In this document: positions 11,300 to 56,787 of the stretch, piece after piece | Layout: every line of letters begins with the position of its first letter | Numbering within the stretch: the stretch's first letter is position 1 | NCBI RefSeq assembly: GCF_030816915.1 | Contig: NZ_JAUSYN010000002.1 | Coordinates: forward strand, 6,275,501 to 6,339,500 | From: Streptomyces sp. B3I8 | GTDB lineage: Bacteria > Actinomycetota > Actinomycetes > Streptomycetales > Streptomycetaceae | Length of the DNA: 64,000 bases | Direction of reading: 5' to 3' | Position numbers and translations under genes: made by a program | Notes under the pieces: model-generated | Database searches by the model: none | Seen by the model: only the letters and a program-made list of their open reading frames with translations | Told to the model about the DNA's origin: nothing

Positions 11300-12277
11300 T
11301 CAGCCCGCCGCGCGGGCCGCCAAGCGGGCCTTGCGGGCCGCCAGCTTCTCGTCGAACTTCGACGCCTCCGCGTCCAGGCCGCCCAGGAACATGCCCAGTT
11401 CCTGCTGGGCCTTCAGACCCTCCGGGCCCAGGCCGTCGAGCTGCAGCACCTTCAGGTGGCGCAGCACCGGCTGGAGCACGTCGTCGTGGTGGATGCGCAG
11501 GTTGTACACCTCTCCTATCGCCATCTGGGCCGCCGCCCGCTCGAAGCCGGGGATGCCGTGGCCCGGCATGCGGAACTCGACCACCACGTCCCGCACCGCC
11601 CGCATCGTCAGGTCGGGGGCCAGCTCGAACGCGGCCTTGAGCAGGTTGCGGTAGAAGACCATGTGCAGGTTCTCGTCCGTCGCGATCCGGGCCAGCATAC
11701 GGTCGCACACCGGGTCGCCCGACTGGTGCCCGGTGTTGCGGTGCGAGATGCGCGTGGCGAGCTCCTGGAAGGCGACGTACGCGATCGAGTGGAGCATCGA
11801 GTGCGCGTTGTCCGACTCGAAGCCCTCGCTCATGTGCGACATCCGGAACTGCTCCAGCTTGTCCGGGTCGACCGCGCGCGAGGCGAGCAGGTAGTCACGC
11901 ATGACGATGCCGTGCCGGCCCTCCTCCGCCGTCCAGCGGTGCACCCAGGTTCCCCAGGCGCCGTTCCGGCCGAACAGGGTGGCGATCTCGTGGTGGTAGC
12001 TGGGGAGGTTGTCCTCCGTGAGGAGGTTGACCACGAGGGCGGTGCGGCCGATCTCGGTGACCTTGGACTGCCCCTTCTCCCAGGACTCGCCGTCCTCGAA
12101 GAACCCGGGGAAGTTGCGTCCGTCGCTCCACGGCACGTACTCGTGCGGCATCCAGTCCTTGGCGACCTTCAAGTGCCGGTTCAGTTCCCTCTCCACCACT
12201 TCCTCCAGCGCGTAGAGCAGCCGCGCGTCGGTCCAGGCGGCGGACGGGCTGCCGAGAAGGGGGGAGGTAACGGTCAC
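11300..12277 (-). CDS. Acyl-ACP desaturase (ferritin-like diiron, DesA family)
   Basis: A 325-residue soluble diiron desaturase that would introduce a double bond into acyl-ACP. The two carboxylate/His iron-ligand helices are visible: a first set around EDNLPSYHHEIA and TAEEGRHGIVMRDYL (EEGRH), and a second in IATDENLHMVFYRNLL (DENLH). Length and motifs fit the bacterial DesA/plant stearoyl-ACP desaturase family. The GTG at 12277 follows CTGGAG at about 7 bases. A five-unit palindromic array lies 68 bp upstream and is a strong candidate for regulation by a fatty-acid-sensing repressor. A 29-bp tandem repeat lies further up. Confidence 0.9.
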   Translation of the reverse strand: MTVTSPLLGSPSAAWTDARLLYALEEVVERELNRHLKVAKDWMPHEYVPWSDGRNFPGFFEDGESWEKGQSKVTEIGRTALVVNLLTEDNLPSYHHEIATLFGRNGAWGTWVHRWTAEEGRHGIVMRDYLLASRAVDPDKLEQFRMSHMSEGFESDNAHSMLHSIAYVAFQELATRISHRNTGHQSGDPVCDRMLARIATDENLHMVFYRNLLKAAFELAPDLTMRAVRDVVVEFRMPGHGIPGFERAAAQMAIGEVYNLRIHHDDVLQPVLRHLKVLQLDGLGPEGLKAQQELGMFLGGLDAEASKFDEKLAARKARLAARAAG

Positions 12278-32932: not shown

Positions 32933-33697
32933 GACGCCCCACCCTACGCCGGGTCCTCCGCCCCCGGGTGAGCGGGACCCGGGGGTCCTGCTCACCACCC
33001 CCCGAAAGACGTAAGCGGCTCCGCCCCCAGGCACGGCCCCCGGGCTCTGCCCCGTTTCACGCAGTTCCCCGCGCCCCTTGGATGGGCGGGGCTGCGCCCC
33101 GTCCTCAGGGACGCGGGCTGAACACCGTGCCCCGCACGGGGCGCGGGGAACTGCGCGAGAAGTCCCCACCCACCCGCACTCCCCGCACGACCCCATCCAC
33201 CCGAGCTCTCCCGGGGTGCAAGGGGCGAAGCCCCTTGCAGGGACGGGAACCTCCCAGCCGGCGGCGGCCGCAGCTGTCCCAGGGGCGCGGGGAACTGCGC
33301 GACAAGCCACGACGTACCCGCCCCCGCCGAACGACCGCACCCGGCGAGCTCTCCCGCGACAGCACCGCACAGCGCCGCTCCGCACCGCACAGCGCCGCAC
33401 CGCACCGCTCCGCACCCCGGGCTCGCCCGTCGACCGCGCACCGGCGGAGCCATTTCGTACGGTTCGCCCCAGGGGGCGACCCCCCGGTTTGGTGGCCACC
33501 CCCCGCATCCCCCAAGATGATCGCGGCCGGAGGTGGTCGGCCGGTGGGTCGAGCCCCGCGTGAACACGCGGTGAACGCGCGCTTCCGGTCATCCGATAAC
33601 CTCTGCCGACACGTCGCCCCACAGGGCAGCACGTCCAGGGACGTACGGTCCCCTATTACATCGCGCACGCCGACGCGTGCCCGCGTCGGCCCAGGGA
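32933..33697. repeat. Long divergent intergenic region with repeat R7 and a 20-bp tandem repeat
   Basis: No gene is supported in 765 bp. About 33050-33305 holds three half or full hairpins of the GCAGTTCCCCGCGCCCC type and GGGACGGGAA-type modules. At 33361-33418 there is a tandem of AGCGCCGCTCCGCACCGCAC. The last ~200 bp before 33698 is repeat-free and should contain the promoter of the seven-gene operon. Confidence 0.65.
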
Positions 33698-35560
33698 GTG
33701 AGTTCGCTGTCGACCGCCATCCTCACCGGTCAGCCGGTACCCGGATCGTCGCTCGAGGGCGATCTGCGGTCCCTCGGCTTCGACGTGCGGGTCGCCTCGG
33801 ACATCGGTGACGCCGAGGCCCTGCTCACCACCATCCCCGCCGACCAGCGCGTCGCCCTCGTCGACGCCCGCTTCGTGGGCCACCTGCACGCCCTGCGGCT
33901 CGGCCTCACCGACCCCCGCTTCGACGCCGCCGCCCTCCCGGGCGCCGTCACCGCGCGTCCCGCCGCGCGCCAGGCGCTCGCCCGCGCCCTGGCCGGCACC
34001 CGCGCGGCCACCACGGGAGCCGCCGACCCCGGTGGCGACACCGCCCCTGCCACCGCCACGGCCGTACTCGACGACCTGTCCGACCTCCCCGGCCGTCTCG
34101 CCGCCGCACTCGACGCCGACGGCGTCCCCGTGCACCGCCCCGAGCTCGGCTCGCTCGTCGCCACCGTCCCCGCCGATCCGCAGACCCGCAACGAGGCCCG
34201 GCAGGCCGTCGCCGCCGTCGACGACGAGGCGGTCCGGCTGAAGTCCGCCGTGAAGTCCCGCGACGGGTTCTTCACCACCTACTGCATCAGCCCCTACTCC
34301 CGCTACCTCGCCCGCTGGTGCGCCCGCCGTGGCCTGACCCCCAACCAGGTCACCACCGCCTCCCTGCTCACCGCGCTGATCGCGGCCGGCTGCGCGGCCA
34401 CCGGCACCCGCCCCGGCTTCGTCGCCGCCGGTGTCCTGCTGATCGCCTCGTTCGTCCTGGACTGCACCGACGGCCAGCTCGCCCGCTACTCGCTGCAGTA
34501 CTCCACGCTCGGCGCCTGGCTCGACGCCACCTTCGACCGGGCCAAGGAGTACGCCTACTACGCGGGCCTCGCCCTCGGCGCCGCCCGCTACGGCGGCCAC
34601 GACGACGTATGGGCGCTCGCGCTCGGCGCGATGGTCCTGCAGACCTGCCGGCACGTCGTCGACTTCTCCTTCAACGAGGCGAACGTCGGGGAAACCGGCA
34701 CCGCCGCCAACAGCAGTCCCACCGCCTCCCTCTCCGGACGGCTCGACAACGTCGGCTGGACGGTCTGGCTGCGCCGCATGATCGTGCTGCCGATCGGCGA
34801 GCGCTGGGCCATGATCGCCGTGCTCACCGCCCTCACCACGCCCCGCCTCACCTTCGTCGTGCTGCTGATCGGCTGCGCCCTCGCCGCCCTCTACACCACC
34901 TCCGGCCGCGTCCTGCGCTCGCTGACCAACAAGGCACCCCGCGCCGCACGCGCCACCCGCGCGCTGGCCGACCTCGCCGACGCCGGACCGCTCACCGAGG
35001 CGCTGACCCCGGCCGTGCGCCGGGTCCCCCGCGGCGTCGCGCCCTTCCTCGCCGCCCTCGGCGGTGCCCTGGTCGTGCTCGCCGCCGCCCTGTGGGGCGC
35101 GAGCTGGGCCACCGCGGCGTGCGCCGCCGTCTACGTGCTCACCTCCGCGGCCGCCGTCGCACGCCCCCTGACCGGTGCGCTCGACTGGCTCGTCCCGCCC
35201 TTCTTCCGGGCCGCCGAATACGGCACGATCCTCGTGCTCGCGGCGAAATCAGAGGTGAACGGAGCGTTGCCGGCGGCCTTCGGGCTGGTTGCGGCGGTCG
35301 CCTACCATCACTACGACACGGTGTACCGCATCCGCGGCAACGCCGGCGCGCCCCCGCGCGGGCTGGTGCGGGCGATCGGGGGGCACGACGGCAGGACACT
35401 GCTCGTCGCCGTCCTCGCCGCGGCCCTCACCGCCACCGCTCTTCCCGTCGCGCTCACGGTCCTGGCCGTGGCCGTGGCACTCGCGGTGCTCGCCGAGAGC
35501 ATCCGCTTCTGGGTCTCCGCAGGAGCACCCGCCGTACACGATGAAGGAGAAACCGCATGA
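33698..35560 (+). CDS. CDP-alcohol phosphotransferase with an extra N-terminal domain and extended C-terminal membrane region (DUF5941-like)
   Basis: About 620 residues. Residues 1-185 are soluble and unrecognised; they faintly recall a worn nucleotidyltransferase fold. Residues ~190-410 are a membrane CDP-alcohol phosphotransferase with a complete signature: Asp255, Asp258-Gly259, Ala262-Arg263, Gly272, Asp276, Asp280. Several more membrane helices follow to the C-terminus, the region I believe is called DUF5941. It should join a CDP-activated alcohol to another hydroxyl with release of CMP. The start is uncertain: GTG at 33698 is used, GTG at 33677 is in frame, and a CTG at 33707 has the best Shine-Dalgarno spacing. 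The stop overlaps the next ATG (ATGA), so it heads an operon. Confidence 0.8.
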   Translation: MSSLSTAILTGQPVPGSSLEGDLRSLGFDVRVASDIGDAEALLTTIPADQRVALVDARFVGHLHALRLGLTDPRFDAAALPGAVTARPAARQALARALAGTRAATTGAADPGGDTAPATATAVLDDLSDLPGRLAAALDADGVPVHRPELGSLVATVPADPQTRNEARQAVAAVDDEAVRLKSAVKSRDGFFTTYCISPYSRYLARWCARRGLTPNQVTTASLLTALIAAGCAATGTRPGFVAAGVLLIASFVLDCTDGQLARYSLQYSTLGAWLDATFDRAKEYAYYAGLALGAARYGGHDDVWALALGAMVLQTCRHVVDFSFNEANVGETGTAANSSPTASLSGRLDNVGWTVWLRRMIVLPIGERWAMIAVLTALTTPRLTFVVLLIGCALAALYTTSGRVLRSLTNKAPRAARATRALADLADAGPLTEALTPAVRRVPRGVAPFLAALGGALVVLAAALWGASWATAACAAVYVLTSAAAVARPLTGALDWLVPPFFRAAEYGTILVLAAKSEVNGALPAAFGLVAAVAYHHYDTVYRIRGNAGAPPRGLVRAIGGHDGRTLLVAVLAAALTATALPVALTVLAVAVALAVLAESIRFWVSAGAPAVHDEGETA

Positions 35561-36309
35561 TCGGCCTCGTGCTGGCGGCCGGCGCCGGACGGCGTCTGCG
35601 CCCCTACACCGACACCCTGCCCAAGGCGCTGGTGCCGGTCGGACCCGAGGGCGCGGAGGAGAGCATCACGGTGCTGGACATCGCCCTCGGCAACTTCGCC
35701 GAGATCGGTCTGACCGAGGTCGCGATCATCGTCGGTTACGCCAAGGAGGCCATCTACGAGCGCCGTGAGGCCCTCGAGGAGAAGTACGGCCTGAAGATCA
35801 CCCTGATCGACAACGACAAGGCCGAGGAGTGGAACAACGCCTACTCCCTGTGGTGCGGGCGTGACGCCATCAAGCACTCGGTGATCCTCGCCAACGGCGA
35901 CACCGTGCACCCGGTCTCCGTCGAGAAGACCCTGCTGGCCGCCCGCGGCGACGGCAAGAAGATCATCCTCGCCGTCGACACCGTGAAGTCGCTGGCCGAC
36001 GAGGAGATGAAGGTCGTCGTCGACCCCGCCAAGGGCATGACGAAGATCACCAAGCTGATGGACCCGGCCGAGGCGTCCGGCGAGTACATCGGCGTCACCC
36101 TCATCGAGGGCGAGGCCGCCGACGAGCTCGGCGACGCGCTGAAGACGGTCTGGGAGACCGACCCGCAGCAGTTCTACGAGCACGGCTACCAGGAGCTCGT
36201 CAACCGGGGCTTCCGGATCGACGTCGCGCCCATCGGTGACGTCCAGTGGGTCGAGATCGACAACCACGACGACCTCGCCAAGGGACGTGAGATCGCGTGC
36301 CGGTACTGA
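35557..36309 (+). CDS. Cytidylyltransferase of the LicC/IPCT type (polyol- or choline-phosphate:CTP)
   Basis: A 250-residue nucleotidyltransferase. The NTP-binding loop is GLVLAAGAGRRLRPYTDTLP followed by KALVPVG. The NNAYSLWCGRD stretch resembles the NN-YSL signature of phosphocholine and inositol-1-phosphate cytidylyltransferases. The metal-binding end VQWVEIDNHDDLAKG also fits. It probably makes a CDP-alcohol from CTP and a polyol phosphate. It overlaps the gene before (ATGA) and, by 13 bases, the gene after, so it is translationally coupled to both partners. The substrate is inferred from context; glycerol-1-phosphate is the leading candidate. Confidence 0.85.
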   Translation: MIGLVLAAGAGRRLRPYTDTLPKALVPVGPEGAEESITVLDIALGNFAEIGLTEVAIIVGYAKEAIYERREALEEKYGLKITLIDNDKAEEWNNAYSLWCGRDAIKHSVILANGDTVHPVSVEKTLLAARGDGKKIILAVDTVKSLADEEMKVVVDPAKGMTKITKLMDPAEASGEYIGVTLIEGEAADELGDALKTVWETDPQQFYEHGYQELVNRGFRIDVAPIGDVQWVEIDNHDDLAKGREIACRY

Positions 36310-37358
36310 CTCGGCTCATCCCCTCACCGATCGTCGTGGACATCCGCCCGGGTGCCCTCGACGATCTGGCCACGGTCCTGGCCGACCAGCGGATCTCCTC
36401 CTCCGGCAAGCTCGCCGTCGCCATCAGCGGCGGCTCCGGCGCCCGGCTGCGCGAGCGGATCCTGCCCGCGCTGCCGGACGCCGACTGGTTCGAGGTCGGC
36501 GGCGGCACCCTGGACGACGCGATCAAGCTCGCCGAGGCCATGAAGCGCGGCCATTACGACGCGGTCGTGGGCCTCGGCGGCGGCAAGATCATCGACTGCG
36601 CCAAGTTCGCCGCGGCGCGCGTCGGCCTGCCGCTGGTCGCCGTCGCGACGAACCTGTCGCACGACGGCCTGTGCTCGCCGGTCGCCACCCTCGACAACGA
36701 CGCCGGCCGCGGCTCGTACGGCGTGCCGAACCCGATCGCGGTCGTCATCGACCTCGACGTCATCCGCGAGGCCCCGGTCCGCTACGTGCGGTCCGGCATC
36801 GGCGACGCCCTGTCCAACATCTCCGCGGTGGCGGACTGGGAGCTGGCCAACCGCGAGAAGGGCGAGTCCATAGACGGCCTCGCCGCCGCGATGGCCCGCC
36901 AGGCCGGCGAGGCCGTGCTGCGCCACCCCGGCGGGGTCGGCGACGACAGCTTCCTCCAGGTACTCGCCGAGGGCCTGGTGCTCACCGGCATCTCCATGTC
37001 GGTCGCGGGCGACTCCCGCCCCGCCTCCGGCGCCTGCCACGAGATCAACCACGCCTTCGACCTGCTCTTCCCCAAGCGCTCCGCCAGCCACGGCGAGCAG
37101 TGCGGCCTGGGTGCGGCCTTCGCGATGCACCTGCGCGGGGCGGCCGAGGAGTCGGCGTACATGGCCTCGGTGCTGCGCCGCCACGGACTTCCGGTGACGC
37201 CCGACGAGATCGGCTTCACCCCGGAGGAGTTCGTCCAGGTCGTGGAGTTCGCCCCGAGCACCCGCCCCGGCCGCTACACCATCCTCGAACACCTCGACCT
37301 GTCCACCGACCAGATCAGGGACGCATACGCCGACTATGCAAAAGCCATCGGTAGCTGA
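36297..37358 (+). CDS. Iron/zinc-dependent polyol dehydrogenase resembling sn-glycerol-1-phosphate dehydrogenase
   Basis: A 353-residue group III metal-dependent dehydrogenase. The NAD(P) motif is VVGLGGGKIIDCAKFAA. The G1PDH/AraM-type boxes are ATNLSHDGLCSPVA, RYVRSGIGDALSNISA, SRPASGACHEINHAFD and HGEQCGLG. The metal ligands would be Asp170, His248 and His265. In archaea and in Bacillus AraM the family reduces dihydroxyacetone phosphate to sn-glycerol-1-phosphate. Here it sits between a cytidylyltransferase and two CDP-alcohol phosphotransferases, so it probably makes the alcohol phosphate they use. A different ketose phosphate substrate is possible. The GTG at 36297 lies inside the preceding gene. 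Confidence 0.85.
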   Translation: MPVLTRLIPSPIVVDIRPGALDDLATVLADQRISSSGKLAVAISGGSGARLRERILPALPDADWFEVGGGTLDDAIKLAEAMKRGHYDAVVGLGGGKIIDCAKFAAARVGLPLVAVATNLSHDGLCSPVATLDNDAGRGSYGVPNPIAVVIDLDVIREAPVRYVRSGIGDALSNISAVADWELANREKGESIDGLAAAMARQAGEAVLRHPGGVGDDSFLQVLAEGLVLTGISMSVAGDSRPASGACHEINHAFDLLFPKRSASHGEQCGLGAAFAMHLRGAAEESAYMASVLRRHGLPVTPDEIGFTPEEFVQVVEFAPSTRPGRYTILEHLDLSTDQIRDAYADYAKAIGS

Positions 37359-38115
37359 GCTCCGCCCGGTCGTCCACCCCGCCGGGGTCAAGGACCGGCG
37401 CAGCGGTGAGCACTGGGGCGGCCGCCTCTACATGCGCGAGATCTCGCTGCGCATAGACCGGCACCTGGTGAACACCCGGGTCACTCCCAACCAGCTGACG
37501 TACCTGATGACCGTCTGCGGGGTGCTCGCCGCACCGGCGCTGCTGGTGCCGGGCATCCCGGGCGCCGTCCTCGGCGTCGTCGCCGTCCAGCTGTACCTGC
37601 TCCTCGACTGCGTGGACGGCGAGATCGCCCGCTGGCGGCAGCAGTTCTCGCTCGGCGGGGTCTACCTCGACCGGGTCGGCGCCTACCTCACCGACGCCGC
37701 CGTCCTGGTCGGCTTCGGGCTGCGCGCCGCCGACCTGTTCGGCAGCGGGCGGATCGACTGGCTGTGGGCGTTCCTCGGCACGCTCGCCGCGCTCGGCGCC
37801 ATCCTGATCAAGGCGGAGACCGACCTGGTCGGCGTCGCCCGCCACCAGACCGGCAAGGAGCCCGTCAAGGAGGCGGCCTCCGAGCCGCGCTCCTCCGGCA
37901 TGGCGCTGGCCCGCCGGGCCGCCGCGGCGCTGAAGTTCCACCGGCTCGTGCTGGGCATAGAGGCGTCCCTGCTCATCCTGGTTCTGGCGATCGTCGACCA
38001 GATCCGCGGCGACCTCTTCTTCTCCCGGCTCGGGGTCGCCGTCCTCGCGGGCATCGCGCTGCTGCAGACCCTGCTGCACCTGGTGTCCATCCTCGCGTCG
38101 AGCAGGCTCAAATGA
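37336..38115 (+). CDS. CDP-alcohol phosphotransferase family membrane protein with a variant signature
   Basis: A 259-residue membrane protein with about five or six helices. The signature is Asp91, Asp94-Gly95, Ala98-Arg99, Gly108 and Asp112. The position of the last Asp, thought to be the catalytic base, is Ala116; the next Asp is at 120. It may use a shifted register, work on another reaction, or pair with the canonical enzyme at the start of the operon. The N-terminal ~35 residues carry conserved-looking GVKDRRSGEHWGGRLYMR. It overlaps the dehydrogenase by 23 bases and the glycosyltransferase by 4 bases. Confidence 0.82.
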   Translation: MQKPSVAELRPVVHPAGVKDRRSGEHWGGRLYMREISLRIDRHLVNTRVTPNQLTYLMTVCGVLAAPALLVPGIPGAVLGVVAVQLYLLLDCVDGEIARWRQQFSLGGVYLDRVGAYLTDAAVLVGFGLRAADLFGSGRIDWLWAFLGTLAALGAILIKAETDLVGVARHQTGKEPVKEAASEPRSSGMALARRAAAALKFHRLVLGIEASLLILVLAIVDQIRGDLFFSRLGVAVLAGIALLQTLLHLVSILASSRLK

Positions 38116-39038
38116 GCAGCGGCATCGGCACGGGCAACGCCGACGGCACCGGCGGGGACACCACGCCGAAGGTCGGCGCGGTGATCATCACGATGGGCAA
38201 CCGGCCCGACGAACTGCGCGCCCTCCTCGACTCGGTCGCCAAGCAGGACGGCGACCCGGTCGAGGTGGTCGTGGTCGGCAACGGCTCCCCGGTGCCCGAG
38301 GTGCCGGACGGCGTGCGGACGGTGGAGCTGCCGGAGAACCTCGGCATCCCCGGCGGCCGCAACGTCGGCATCGAGGCCTTCGGACCGGGTGGCGAGGACG
38401 TCGACATCCTGCTCTTCCTGGACGACGACGGACTGCTCGCCCGCACCGACACCGCCGAACTGTGCCGGCGGGCCTTCGCCGCCGACCCGGAGCTGGGCAT
38501 CGTCAGTTTCCGCATCGCGGACCCGGAGACCGGTGTCACCCAGCGCCGGCACGTGCCGCGGCTGCGCGCCTCGGACCCGATGCGCTCCTCCCGGGTGACC
38601 ACCTTCCTCGGCGGCGCCAACGCCGTCCGCACGAAGGTGTTCGCCGAGGTCGGCGGGCTGCCCGGCGAGTTCTTCTACGCCCACGAGGAGACCGACCTCG
38701 CCTGGCGGGCGCTGAACGCCGGCTGGATGATCGACTACCGCGCCGACATGGTGCTGTACCACCCGACGACGGCGCCCTCCCGGCACGCGGTCTACCACCG
38801 CATGGTCGCCCGCAACCGGGTCTGGCTCGCCCGCCGCAACCTGCCCGTCCTGCTCGTCCCCGTCTACCTCGGGGTCTGGCTGCTGCTCACGCTGGCCCGC
38901 CGCCCCTCGGGGGCCGCGCTGAAGGCCTGGTTCGGCGGCTTCCGGGAAGGCTGGTCCTCCTCCTGCGGCCCCCGCCGGCCCATGAAGTGGCGTACGGTGT
39001 GGCGGCTGACCCGACTGGGCCGGCCACCGGTCATCTGA
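38112..39038 (+). CDS. Family 2 glycosyltransferase
   Basis: A 308-residue GT-A enzyme. After a ~20-residue Gly-rich lead, VGAVIITMGNRPDELRALLD starts the nucleotide-sugar fold. The DXD-type metal site is in LLFLDDDGLLAR. The acceptor region GANAVRTKVFAEVGGLPGEF followed by HEETDLAWRALNAGW (ED-like catalytic box) is typical. A single hydrophobic stretch near residue 245 (LLVPVYLGVWLLLTLA) may anchor it to the membrane. It probably adds a sugar to the lipid or polymer made by the operon. Start and stop overlap as ATGA with the gene before. Confidence 0.88.
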   Translation: MSSGIGTGNADGTGGDTTPKVGAVIITMGNRPDELRALLDSVAKQDGDPVEVVVVGNGSPVPEVPDGVRTVELPENLGIPGGRNVGIEAFGPGGEDVDILLFLDDDGLLARTDTAELCRRAFAADPELGIVSFRIADPETGVTQRRHVPRLRASDPMRSSRVTTFLGGANAVRTKVFAEVGGLPGEFFYAHEETDLAWRALNAGWMIDYRADMVLYHPTTAPSRHAVYHRMVARNRVWLARRNLPVLLVPVYLGVWLLLTLARRPSGAALKAWFGGFREGWSSSCGPRRPMKWRTVWRLTRLGRPPVI

Positions 39039-39135
39039 CAAGCTCGAGATCTGAGAGCATGCGGGGCGACACCACGCCCCGGGGCTCCTCCCTGCCCGAC
39101 TGGCGTGCTTCCCTGAGGACGAAAGCTTCCTACCT

Positions 39136-40065
39136 GTGAGTGAGACCACGCATGACGGCGGTGTCGCGGTGAGCGCCCGACCGTCGCCCGATGACGGGAT
39201 GAGCGCGGCCGATCTGGCCGCCAAGTACGGACTGAGCGTCAGCGGCGCCCGGCCCGGACTCGCCGAGTACGTCCGCCAGTTGTGGGGGCGGCGCCACTTC
39301 ATCCTCGCCTTCTCGCAGGCGAAGCTCACCGCCCAGTACAGCCAGGCCAAGCTGGGCCAGTTGTGGCAGGTGGCGACCCCGCTGCTCAACGCGGCGGTCT
39401 ACTACCTGATCTTCGGACTGATCCTCAACGCCAGCCGGGGCATGTCCCACGACGTGTACATCCCGTTCCTGGTGACCGGCGTCTTCACCTTCACCTTCAC
39501 CCAGAGCTCGGTGATGGCGGGCGTGCGGGCGATCTCCGGAAACCTCGGGCTGGTGCGGGCGCTGCACTTCCCGCGCGCCGCGCTCCCCGTGTCGTTCGCG
39601 CTGCAGCAGCTCCAGCAACTGCTGTTCTCGATGATCGTCATGGTCCTGGTGGTGGTCGGCTTCGGGAGCATGCCGGGCCTGTCGTGGGCGCTGGTCGTGC
39701 CGGTCCTGGTGCTGCAGTTCCTCTTCAACACCGGTCTGGCGCTGATCATGGCGCGGCTGGGGTCCAAGACCCCGGACCTCGCCCAGCTGATGCCGTTCGT
39801 GATGCGCACCTGGATGTACGCGTCCGGCGTCATGTTCTCCATCACACACATGCTCAAGGGCAAGCCGGAATGGATCGCCCATGTGCTGCAGGTGAACCCC
39901 GCCGCGGTCTACATGGACCTCATGCGCTACGCCCTGATCGACCAGTACGGCTCCTCGAACCTGCCGCCGCACGTCTGGGCGATCGCGCTGTTCTGGGCCG
40001 TCGTCCTGTTCGCCGGCGGGTTCGTGTATTTCTGGAAGGCGGAAGAGAGGTACGGCCGTGGCTGA
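39136..40065 (+). CDS. ABC-2-type polysaccharide exporter permease (Wzm/TagG-like)
   Basis: A 309-residue permease with about six membrane helices after a ~55-residue cytoplasmic lead. The entry helix motif AQYSQAKLGQLWQVATPLLN and AISGNLGLVRALHFPRAALP are typical of ABC-2 exporters of O-antigen and teichoic acid. The GTG at 39136 is 97 bp after the glycosyltransferase; this gap holds no gene. The following ATPase gene overlaps its end by 8 bases, so they form one transporter. Confidence 0.9.
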   Translation: MSETTHDGGVAVSARPSPDDGMSAADLAAKYGLSVSGARPGLAEYVRQLWGRRHFILAFSQAKLTAQYSQAKLGQLWQVATPLLNAAVYYLIFGLILNASRGMSHDVYIPFLVTGVFTFTFTQSSVMAGVRAISGNLGLVRALHFPRAALPVSFALQQLQQLLFSMIVMVLVVVGFGSMPGLSWALVVPVLVLQFLFNTGLALIMARLGSKTPDLAQLMPFVMRTWMYASGVMFSITHMLKGKPEWIAHVLQVNPAAVYMDLMRYALIDQYGSSNLPPHVWAIALFWAVVLFAGGFVYFWKAEERYGRG

Positions 40066-40828
40066 GTATTCCGACCGCCCCACCGTGATCGCGGACGAGC
40101 TGCACATCGTCTACCGGGTCAACGGCGCCCGCACCGGCAAGGGCAGCGCCACCTCCGCCCTCAGCCGCATCCTGAGGAGAGGCGAGGAGCGGGGGGTGCG
40201 CAAGGTGCACGCCGTGCGCGGTGTCTCCTTCACCTCCTACCGGGGCGAGGCCATCGGCCTGATCGGCTCCAACGGCTCGGGCAAGTCCACCCTGCTGCGG
40301 GCCATCGCCGGACTGCTGCCCGCCGAGAGCGGCAAGGTCTACACCGACGGCCAGCCCTCGCTGCTCGGCGTCAACGCCGCCCTGATGAACGACCTCACCG
40401 GTGAACGCAACGTCATCCTCGGCGGTCTCGCGATGGGCATGACCCGCGAGCAGGTCAAGGAGCGTTACCAGGAGATCGTCGACTTCTCCGGCATCAACGA
40501 GAAGGGCGACTTCATCACGCTGCCGATGCGGACGTACTCCTCCGGCATGGCGGCGCGGCTGCGGTTCTCCATCGCCGCCGCCAAGGACCACGACGTCCTC
40601 ATGATCGACGAGGCGCTCGCCACCGGCGACCGGGCCTTCCAGAAGCGCTCCGAGGCACGCATCCGTGAACTGCGCAAGCAGGCCGGCACGGTCTTCCTCG
40701 TCAGCCACAACAACAAGTCGATCCGCGACACCTGCGACCGGGTGCTCTGGCTGGAGCGCGGCGAGCTGCGCATGGACGGCCCGACCGCCGAGGTCCTCAA
40801 GGAGTACGAGAAATTCACGGGCAAATAG
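40058..40828 (+). CDS. ABC exporter ATP-binding subunit (Wzt/TagH-like)
   Basis: A 256-residue ATPase. Walker A is GLIGSNGSGKSTLLRAIAG, the signature TYSSGMAARLRFSIAAA, Walker B DVLMIDEALATGD and the switch His VFLVSHN. The NDLTGERNVILGGLAMGMTR stretch is typical of the Wzt/TagH group. There is no C-terminal carbohydrate-binding extension, unlike longer Wzt proteins, so substrate recognition may rest on the permease. It ends the operon, followed at once by a strong hairpin. Confidence 0.9.
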   Translation: MAEYSDRPTVIADELHIVYRVNGARTGKGSATSALSRILRRGEERGVRKVHAVRGVSFTSYRGEAIGLIGSNGSGKSTLLRAIAGLLPAESGKVYTDGQPSLLGVNAALMNDLTGERNVILGGLAMGMTREQVKERYQEIVDFSGINEKGDFITLPMRTYSSGMAARLRFSIAAAKDHDVLMIDEALATGDRAFQKRSEARIRELRKQAGTVFLVSHNNKSIRDTCDRVLWLERGELRMDGPTAEVLKEYEKFTGK

Positions 40829-40853
40829 CCCGCAATGACCCGCTTGTCGACGA

Positions 40854-40884
40854 GGGCCCCGCCGGTGCGAATCCGGCGGGGCCC
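40854..40884 (+). terminator. Hairpin terminator of the surface-polymer operon
   Basis: A perfect 12-bp stem (GGGCCCCGCCGG / CCGGCGGGGCCC) with a 7-base loop, 25 bp after the ATPase stop. No long U-tract follows. Confidence 0.85.
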
Positions 40885-41202
40885 CTGTCATTCGCAAAAG
40901 AAACGTCAACTCCTGCCGTCGTTAGGAATCTTGACGGCAATCGGTGTGTTCTTGTGATGTGCAGGACACCCCCGCGCAGCGTGCTGCGTTGTACAACGTA
41001 AGCTGAGCTCCGGTGCTGATTCGCGGCAACCGGGTCGATAACGCGCGAGATCCGCACGAAGGCCGCGCGGCGTGGACAACGGGGCGGCGTGTTCTAAATA
41101 GGATGTATTCGGTCCGCAGTGGAGAACGGGAGACGTGACGGCAATGGCTACGGATGAACTTCACCTCCGCACAGCACGCGCCGTCTCCCGGCCGGGCGGC
41201 TC
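40885..41202. promoter_or_regulatory. Promoter/leader region of the hopanoid operon
   Basis: This 318-bp gap is clearly less GC-rich than its flanks. It holds a perfect 12-bp palindrome, CGTTGTACAACG (40987-40998), and an AT-rich stretch around 41092-41110 (TTCTAAATAGGATGTATTCG) that could be a -10 region. No gene is supported. Confidence 0.5.
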
Positions 41203-56597: not shown

Positions 56598-56770
56598 CGC
56601 CTAATCCTGCCGCCGCCCGGAATCCGCACTCACCCACCCGCACTCGGCAGGAGCGGGGGACCCACAGGTACATCGCCTGGTCCGGTCTTCCAGGACAGGC
56701 TCGGGGTAAAGCCGTGGAATCACACGGCCGGGCATCTCCAGCTCGCACCCGACAGCTCACCTCGCAGGCG
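56598..56770 (+). ncRNA. Cyclic-di-AMP riboswitch (ydaO-yuaA type)
   Basis: The core carries the actinobacterial ydaO consensus in order: CGGCAGGAGCGGGGGACCCA, CCTGGTCCGG, CTCGGGGTAAAGCC, GGCCGGGCATCTCCAG, then CCCGACAGCTCACCTCGCAGG. The outer P1 helix can be formed by CGCCT (56598-56602) and AGGCG (56766-56770). It ends 17 bp before the ATG of a LysM/M23 cell-wall hydrolase gene, the usual Streptomyces target class of this riboswitch. High c-di-AMP is expected to lower expression. Confidence 0.85.
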
Positions 56771-56787
56771 CAGGAGAGGAATTCGAC

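Follow-up and report, generated by a model that had tools for sequence, protein, structure and literature searches.

We analysed a 64,000-nucleotide stretch of the Streptomyces sp. B3I8 genome (contig NZ_JAUSYN010000002.1, positions 6,275,501 to 6,339,500 of the forward strand; hereafter the window) and focused on a run of seven genes, designated A to G, which an initial annotation had read as an operon that may serve a surface lipid or polymer derived from a cytidine diphosphate (CDP)-activated polyol. All seven open reading frames were confirmed on the + strand in the order first described, as were overlaps at five of the six junctions: A-B, B-C, C-D, D-E and F-G share 4, 13, 23, 4 and 8 bp, respectively. 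E and F are separated by a 97-bp gap that sets the exporter pair apart from the glycosyltransferase. The strong hairpin reported to end the operon is real as a fold (-38.1 kcal/mol, z -3.96), but it has no T-run and a terminator scan listed no + strand terminator at this position; a promoter scan found none. In window coordinates, the features are as follows.

Gene A, 33698..35560, + strand: membrane CDP-alcohol phosphotransferase with DUF5941; GTG start, with a start 7 residues farther upstream (33677) also possible
Gene B, 35557..36309, + strand: LicC/IPCT-type nucleotidyltransferase (NTP_transferase); proposed cytidine triphosphate (CTP):glycerol-1-phosphate cytidylyltransferase
Gene C, 36297..37358, + strand: Fe-ADH_2 protein, glycerol-1-phosphate dehydrogenase-like, with D170/H248/H265
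Gene D, 37336..38115, + strand: divergent CDP-alcohol phosphotransferase (CDP-OH_P_transf)
Gene E, 38112..39038, + strand: family 2 glycosyltransferase (GT2)
Gene F, 39136..40065, + strand: Wzm/TagG-type ABC permease (ABC2_membrane)
Gene G, 40058..40828, + strand: Wzt/TagH-type ATPase of 256 residues, best model TagH
Hairpin 3' of G, 40849..40889, + strand: strong, without a T-run

In B, the GxGxRL...PK loop, the GD site and the C-terminal W.E.D motif are at least 97% identical across 130 orthologues, and the best alignments among solved structures are with LicC (1jyk), the PntC fusion (6pd1) and 4jd0, in agreement with the LicC/IPCT-like cytidylyltransferase first proposed. C retains the residues that we take to be its metal ligands, with H248 and H265 present in all 135 orthologues and D170 in 130; in the other five (L160-L163 and L152) the presumed ligand aspartate is replaced by glutamate. 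The best of the NCBIfam models listed for C is sn-glycerol-1-phosphate (G1P) dehydrogenase (G1PDH), at 238 bits and 146 bits above the glycerol dehydrogenase model, and its solved relatives are G1PDHs; the earlier identification of a G1PDH-like enzyme with its metal triad was borne out. We propose with moderate confidence that C reduces dihydroxyacetone phosphate (DHAP) to G1P and that B acts as a CTP:G1P cytidylyltransferase.

The arrangement of these genes is conserved, and the nearest named proteins come from Streptomyces. A scan of named genomes, in which the best 80 of at least 499 relatives were taken (nearly all Streptomyces), showed the order A-G in 74 loci and A-F in the remaining six, which lie on stretches of 8.8-13.9 kb where G may be cut off. 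B was directly upstream of C in all 80, and the recurrence of one order in 80 related loci indicates that the arrangement is not due to chance. C was also present in 60/60 other genomes of the same genus that were searched. Across a class-wide sample of 393 genomes, 105 carried a strong match to C (E ≤ 1e-100), comprising 44 Streptomyces and 61 others; for 41 of the latter we compared the loci, counting non-overlapping matches on the strand of C. B directly preceded C in 40 of these 41, down to about 50% identity, whereas the counts were lower for A-like genes (26 loci), D (29) and E (27); 23 loci had all three, and 17 had a TagGH-like pair near B-C on the same strand. None of A and D-G was found on the strand of C in six loci (L126, L135, L139, L140, L142 and L145), and B was absent from all five loci of C paralogues of about 30% identity. 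Because the B-C adjacency is nearly invariant and the phosphotransferases, glycosyltransferase and exporter vary, the core of the system is B and C; the seven-gene set is co-conserved in Streptomyces-type loci, but not class-wide.

Three families of CDP-polyol users occur near B-C, namely CDP-alcohol phosphotransferases, LicD-like proteins and TagB/TagF-like proteins of family PF04464. These families are unrelated to one another and use donors of the CDP-polyol or CDP-choline type; PF04464 and LicD enzymes use CDP-glycerol, CDP-ribitol or CDP-choline. PF04464 genes lie within 10 kb of C in 15/45 genomes, against 0.36 expected under uniform placement, and these cases include a genome with 37% G+C (L126), the family of L119, for which Microbispora comes nearest among named organisms, and the four same-order loci (L160-L163). 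LicD-like genes occur near B-C in three Nocardioides-type loci, by Pfam matches of 35 bits in L134 and L140 and by a 43%-identical relative in L148. Where a VIA-align list names no other family, this is no evidence against another family. The common denominator of such unrelated donor users would be the supply of a CDP-activated small alcohol, and with C alongside, G1P is the natural candidate. Among the same loci, L134 and L148 also have a Wzm/Wzt-like pair near B-C and LicD, L134 has a GlfT2-like galactofuranosyltransferase (Pfam) there with a 62%-identical relative in L148, and L140 has a pyruvyl transferase. In L135, genes for proteins of 327 and 255 residues beside B-C gave no Pfam match above cut-offs.

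Other uses or sources of such precursors were sought genome-wide. The host genome has no match to PcrB/GGGPS in a search that was positive in 7/14 controls, including B. subtilis and the four archaea, and we rejected archaeal ether lipid synthesis in this host on that basis. It also has no true TagD (best match 35.5 bits against a cut-off of 165.4); two weak matches were rejected as a hidden source of CDP-glycerol because they are HldE-like, one of them also falling below the HldE-domain cut-off. Matches of 62-68 bits to the TagD model, well below the 165-bit cut-off, occur in 19/44 Streptomyces genomes. PF04464 is absent from the operon, and the two PF04464 proteins of the host are encoded 3.6 Mb away, at 2.70-2.72 Mb. 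That second envelope-glycopolymer region (G000:C2:2700000-2719999) also has genes for GT2 proteins and for a separate ABC permease/ATPase pair. In the class sample, where TagD-like was defined as at least 100 bits (a limit chosen in this analysis) and PF04464 as E ≤ 1e-40, 33 genomes carried a TagD-like gene and 105 carried C, with none carrying both against 8.8 expected. The corresponding genome-level P value of 2e-5 is inflated by relatedness and was not relied on. PF04464 was found in 99/105 genomes with C and in 53/288 of the others; by family, it occurs in eight of the nine families with C, against 17 families overall (P about 3-6e-4, 47-51 families).

A comprises an N-terminal cytidylyltransferase-like domain, CDP-OH_P_transf and a C-terminal DUF5941. 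Its D..DG..AR..G...D...D motif is intact, and D255, D258, G259, A262, R263, G272, D276 and D280 are invariant in 27 aligned sequences. Residues 1-174 are predicted to adopt a degenerate cytidylyltransferase-like fold in which the catalytic loop is not visible, and the A homologue of L159, as called, does not have this domain. The predicted membrane domain (CDP-AP domain plus DUF5941) matches CHPT1/CEPT1 at 11-13% identity, and the model of A resembles these eukaryotic choline phosphotransferases, with DUF5941 forming the second half of the fold. By sequence, the nearest solved structures to both A and D are AF2299 and IPCT-DIPPS. D lacks the fourth aspartate of the phosphotransferase motif, as do 116 of the 117 D motifs listed (of 118); the exception is in L137, where the gene also matches A. 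Position 116 of D is alanine or histidine in 25/25 aligned orthologues (alanine here, histidine in other lineages) and position 120, one helical turn past the missing aspartate, is aspartate or glutamate in all 25. With this catalytic residue missing from D, the earlier count of two CDP-alcohol phosphotransferases stands for A and is uncertain for D. The family assignments of E (GT2) and of F and G (Wzm/Wzt-type exporter) were confirmed.

Taken together, these observations make it somewhat probable, at roughly 55%, that the operon makes and exports a glycerophosphate envelope glycopolymer or glycolipid from the sn-glycerol-1-phosphate enantiomer. In this pathway, whose substrates, enantiomer, acceptor and polymer are all inferred, C would convert DHAP to G1P and B would couple G1P with CTP to give CDP-1-glycerol, the enantiomer of the donor normally used for teichoic acids. 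A, perhaps with D, would then use CDP-1-glycerol to place glycerol phosphate on a membrane-bound acceptor, E would add a sugar and F/G would move the product outward. A G1P-based, CDP-1-glycerol-dependent variant of the teichoic-acid type is the most likely kind of pathway, and the likeliest product belongs to the poly(glycerol phosphate) teichoic or lipoteichoic acid class reported from Streptomyces. The make-activate-join-glycosylate-export logic of the initial annotation and its G1P starting point both gain from the B-C invariance, from the linkage to three kinds of CDP-polyol users and from the absence of GGGPS and TagD in the host.

In S. hygroscopicus, both lipoteichoic acid (LTA) and wall teichoic acid (WTA) consist of poly(glycerol phosphate); the same paper reports no clear orthologue of LtaS from actinobacterial genomes and treats the route of LTA synthesis as open (PMC3196553, 2011). 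It also mentions LTA as reported for Thermobifida fusca and Agromyces. The genome of S. hygroscopicus subsp. hygroscopicus NBRC 13472 (L065) carries A-G, with A reaching the contig end. This is presumably the strain of the LTA study. WTA and LTA are enantiomeric and can be distinguished by GlpQ, which cleaves sn-glycerol-3-phosphate but not sn-1 chains (PMC7086022), and CDP-1-glycerol was judged likely absent from bacteria (PMC8262930, 2021). We found no product or assignment for the operon in a literature search that covered subscription papers thinly; queries with SCO locus tags (SCO6753 appears in a network paper), DUF5941 and "glycerol-1-phosphate cytidylyltransferase" returned nothing useful, and the accessible part of PMC11481543 has nothing on glycerophosphate synthesis. 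The statement that no product had been published accordingly holds for the literature searched, with the reservation that a 2026 synteny paper has, on the basis of annotation, placed this region under teichoic acid biosynthesis (PMC13118837).

Several findings weigh against this interpretation. The 238-bit score of C falls short of the 413-bit equivalog cut-off of the NCBIfam G1PDH model, and the fourth aspartate is missing in D as described. The Pfam LicD matches near B-C span about 35 residues only, and the PF04464 genes near B-C are often divergent (38-49 bits in L119, L126, L147 and L156). The exclusion between C and TagD-like genes is not independent of phylogeny and fails at the family level: a single Nocardioides-type family (f28) has both kinds, with 3 C genomes, 24 TagD genomes and none shared. 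At the curated cut-off TagD is present in 5/393 genomes only, and 32 genomes have PF04464 with neither C nor TagD. An inverting GT2 alone would not give the alpha-linked N-acetylglucosamine of S. hygroscopicus LTA. Finally, S. coelicolor is described as having, as its main wall polymers, a teichulosonic acid free of phosphate and a glycosyl-phosphate polymer that contains no glycerol (PMC7831098).

Other readings place the same enzymes in different pathways. A could use CDP-1-glycerol to modify diacylglycerol or a glycolipid with glycerol phosphate, in a Kennedy-type route to phosphatidylglycerol-like lipids or glycerophosphoglycolipids, with E glycosylating and F/G flipping a small membrane lipid. 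The likeness of A to CHPT1/CEPT1 invites this idea, but the shared fold reveals no acceptor, helical bundles score high in such comparisons, and in the Foldseek ranking CHPT1 (E 0.014 and weaker) comes far below AF2299 (E about 1e-8). Glycans are instead suggested by the TagGH-type exporter and by the repeated occurrence of PF04464 and LicD-like genes nearby, and we regard a small lipid as rather unlikely. The sequence similarity of A and D to AF2299 and IPCT-DIPPS raises the different prospect that the activated alcohol is inositol or another polyol phosphate, as for the thermophile IPCT/DIPPS, and that C has moved away from G1P towards a different substrate; the weak likeness of B to LicC, PntC and IPCT alike and the sub-threshold score of C are consistent with this. 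Such drift is harder to reconcile with the margin of the G1PDH model over glycerol dehydrogenase, the lack of an inositol-phosphate synthase among the seven genes and the known donors of PF04464 and LicD enzymes, and we consider it distinctly improbable.

Membership of C in the iron-containing alcohol dehydrogenase superfamily, and the many records in which it is called that or glycerol dehydrogenase, would also suit a general glycerol or polyol dehydrogenase linked to B by history. Given that the B-C pairing persists in all but one of the class loci and is missing at the five C paralogues, this explanation is very unlikely. A 2019 survey took the Streptomyces G1PDH as a sign that archaeal-like lipids may be made and reported orthologues of all three archaeal genes in some Streptomyces (PMC6431249). 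For this operon, G1P destined for archaeal-type ether lipids is hardly credible, as the host has no PcrB/GGGPS match and C is paired with a cytidylyltransferase.

A wider form of the glycerophosphate hypothesis can be put forward tentatively, and we would not yet bet on it. A mirror-image teichoic-acid pathway may operate in Actinobacteria, in which G1PDH and the LicC-like enzyme would supply CDP-1-glycerol in place of TagD and CDP-3-glycerol to PF04464, LicD-like or choline-phosphotransferase-like transferases, so that polymers of sn-glycerol-1-phosphate, with the handedness of LTA, would be made in the cytoplasm. If correct, it would account for Streptomyces LTA without LtaS and for the long-puzzling "archaeal" G1PDH of Actinobacteria, and a single hypothesis would address three questions: the Streptomyces G1PDH, the LtaS-free poly(glycerol phosphate) LTA and bacterial use of CDP-1-glycerol. 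The seven-gene set itself could explain the presence of glycerol-phosphate wall polymers in these Streptomyces, which lack the textbook enzymes.

The proposed pathway shares elements with several characterised systems. Like Bacillus WTA synthesis (TagD-TagB/F-TagGH), it would combine a CDP-glycerol donor, glycerol-phosphate transfer inside the cell and a TagGH-type ABC-2 exporter; unlike it, the host lacks TagD, the operon lacks PF04464 and has membrane CDP-alcohol phosphotransferases as its transferases, and the donor would be the sn-1 enantiomer made through G1PDH. Archaeoglobus IPCT-DIPPS/AF2299 and archaeal glycerophosphoinositol synthesis, for which CDP-1-glycerol has been named (PMC8262930), likewise pair a cytidylyltransferase with a CDP-alcohol phosphotransferase, to which the operon adds a dedicated G1PDH, a glycosyltransferase and an exporter, without an inositol gene. 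Bacillus AraM-PcrB, which serves heptaprenylglyceryl phosphate synthesis, provides a precedent for a bacterial G1PDH, but the host genome lacks PcrB and C is partnered by a nucleotidyltransferase. Caulobacter CpgD, of the ceramide diphosphoglycerate pathway, is also an IPCT-fold nucleotidyltransferase, whose CDP-C3 product serves as donor in the synthesis of an envelope lipid; CpgD acts on phosphoglycerate and gave no product with G1P (PMC12275187). With respect to CHPT1/CEPT1, A differs by its extra N-terminal domain and the low identity noted above.

The genomic setting first described, beside galE and the hopanoid genes, is of mixed relevance. Hopanoid genes occur at 53-60 and galE at 55 of the 80 Streptomyces-scan loci, several of which are on short stretches, and none of the 41 other class loci had a hit of more than 150 bits to hopanoid genes, idi or galE. 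The hopanoid neighbourhood was thus seen in Streptomyces only, and a hopanoid-linked lipid is unsupported. The galE association fared better: the gene lies inside the cluster in three of the four same-order loci (L161-L163) and directly before B in the fourth (L160), which hints at galactose.

Extra B-C copies were identified in the Streptomyces loci L164, L165, L167 and L173, with C alone matched in L166. These copies lie between or beside the genes for RNase E, L21, L27 and Obg, except that L165 does not include RNase E, and they were rejected as a biosynthetic cluster. Full-length PF04464 genes are also present near the extra copies in L165, L166 and L173. A nucleotidyltransferase duplication in 76 genomes is mentioned in PMC13118837. 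Elsewhere in the window, the long region between galE and A (32968-33622) yields translations with a recurring RGELR-like tract that suggests an interspersed repeat. The window also contains a match to the ASdes small-RNA family at 11856-11923 (60.7 bits) and one to the cyclic di-AMP (ydaO/yuaA) riboswitch at 56621-56783 (59.5 bits).

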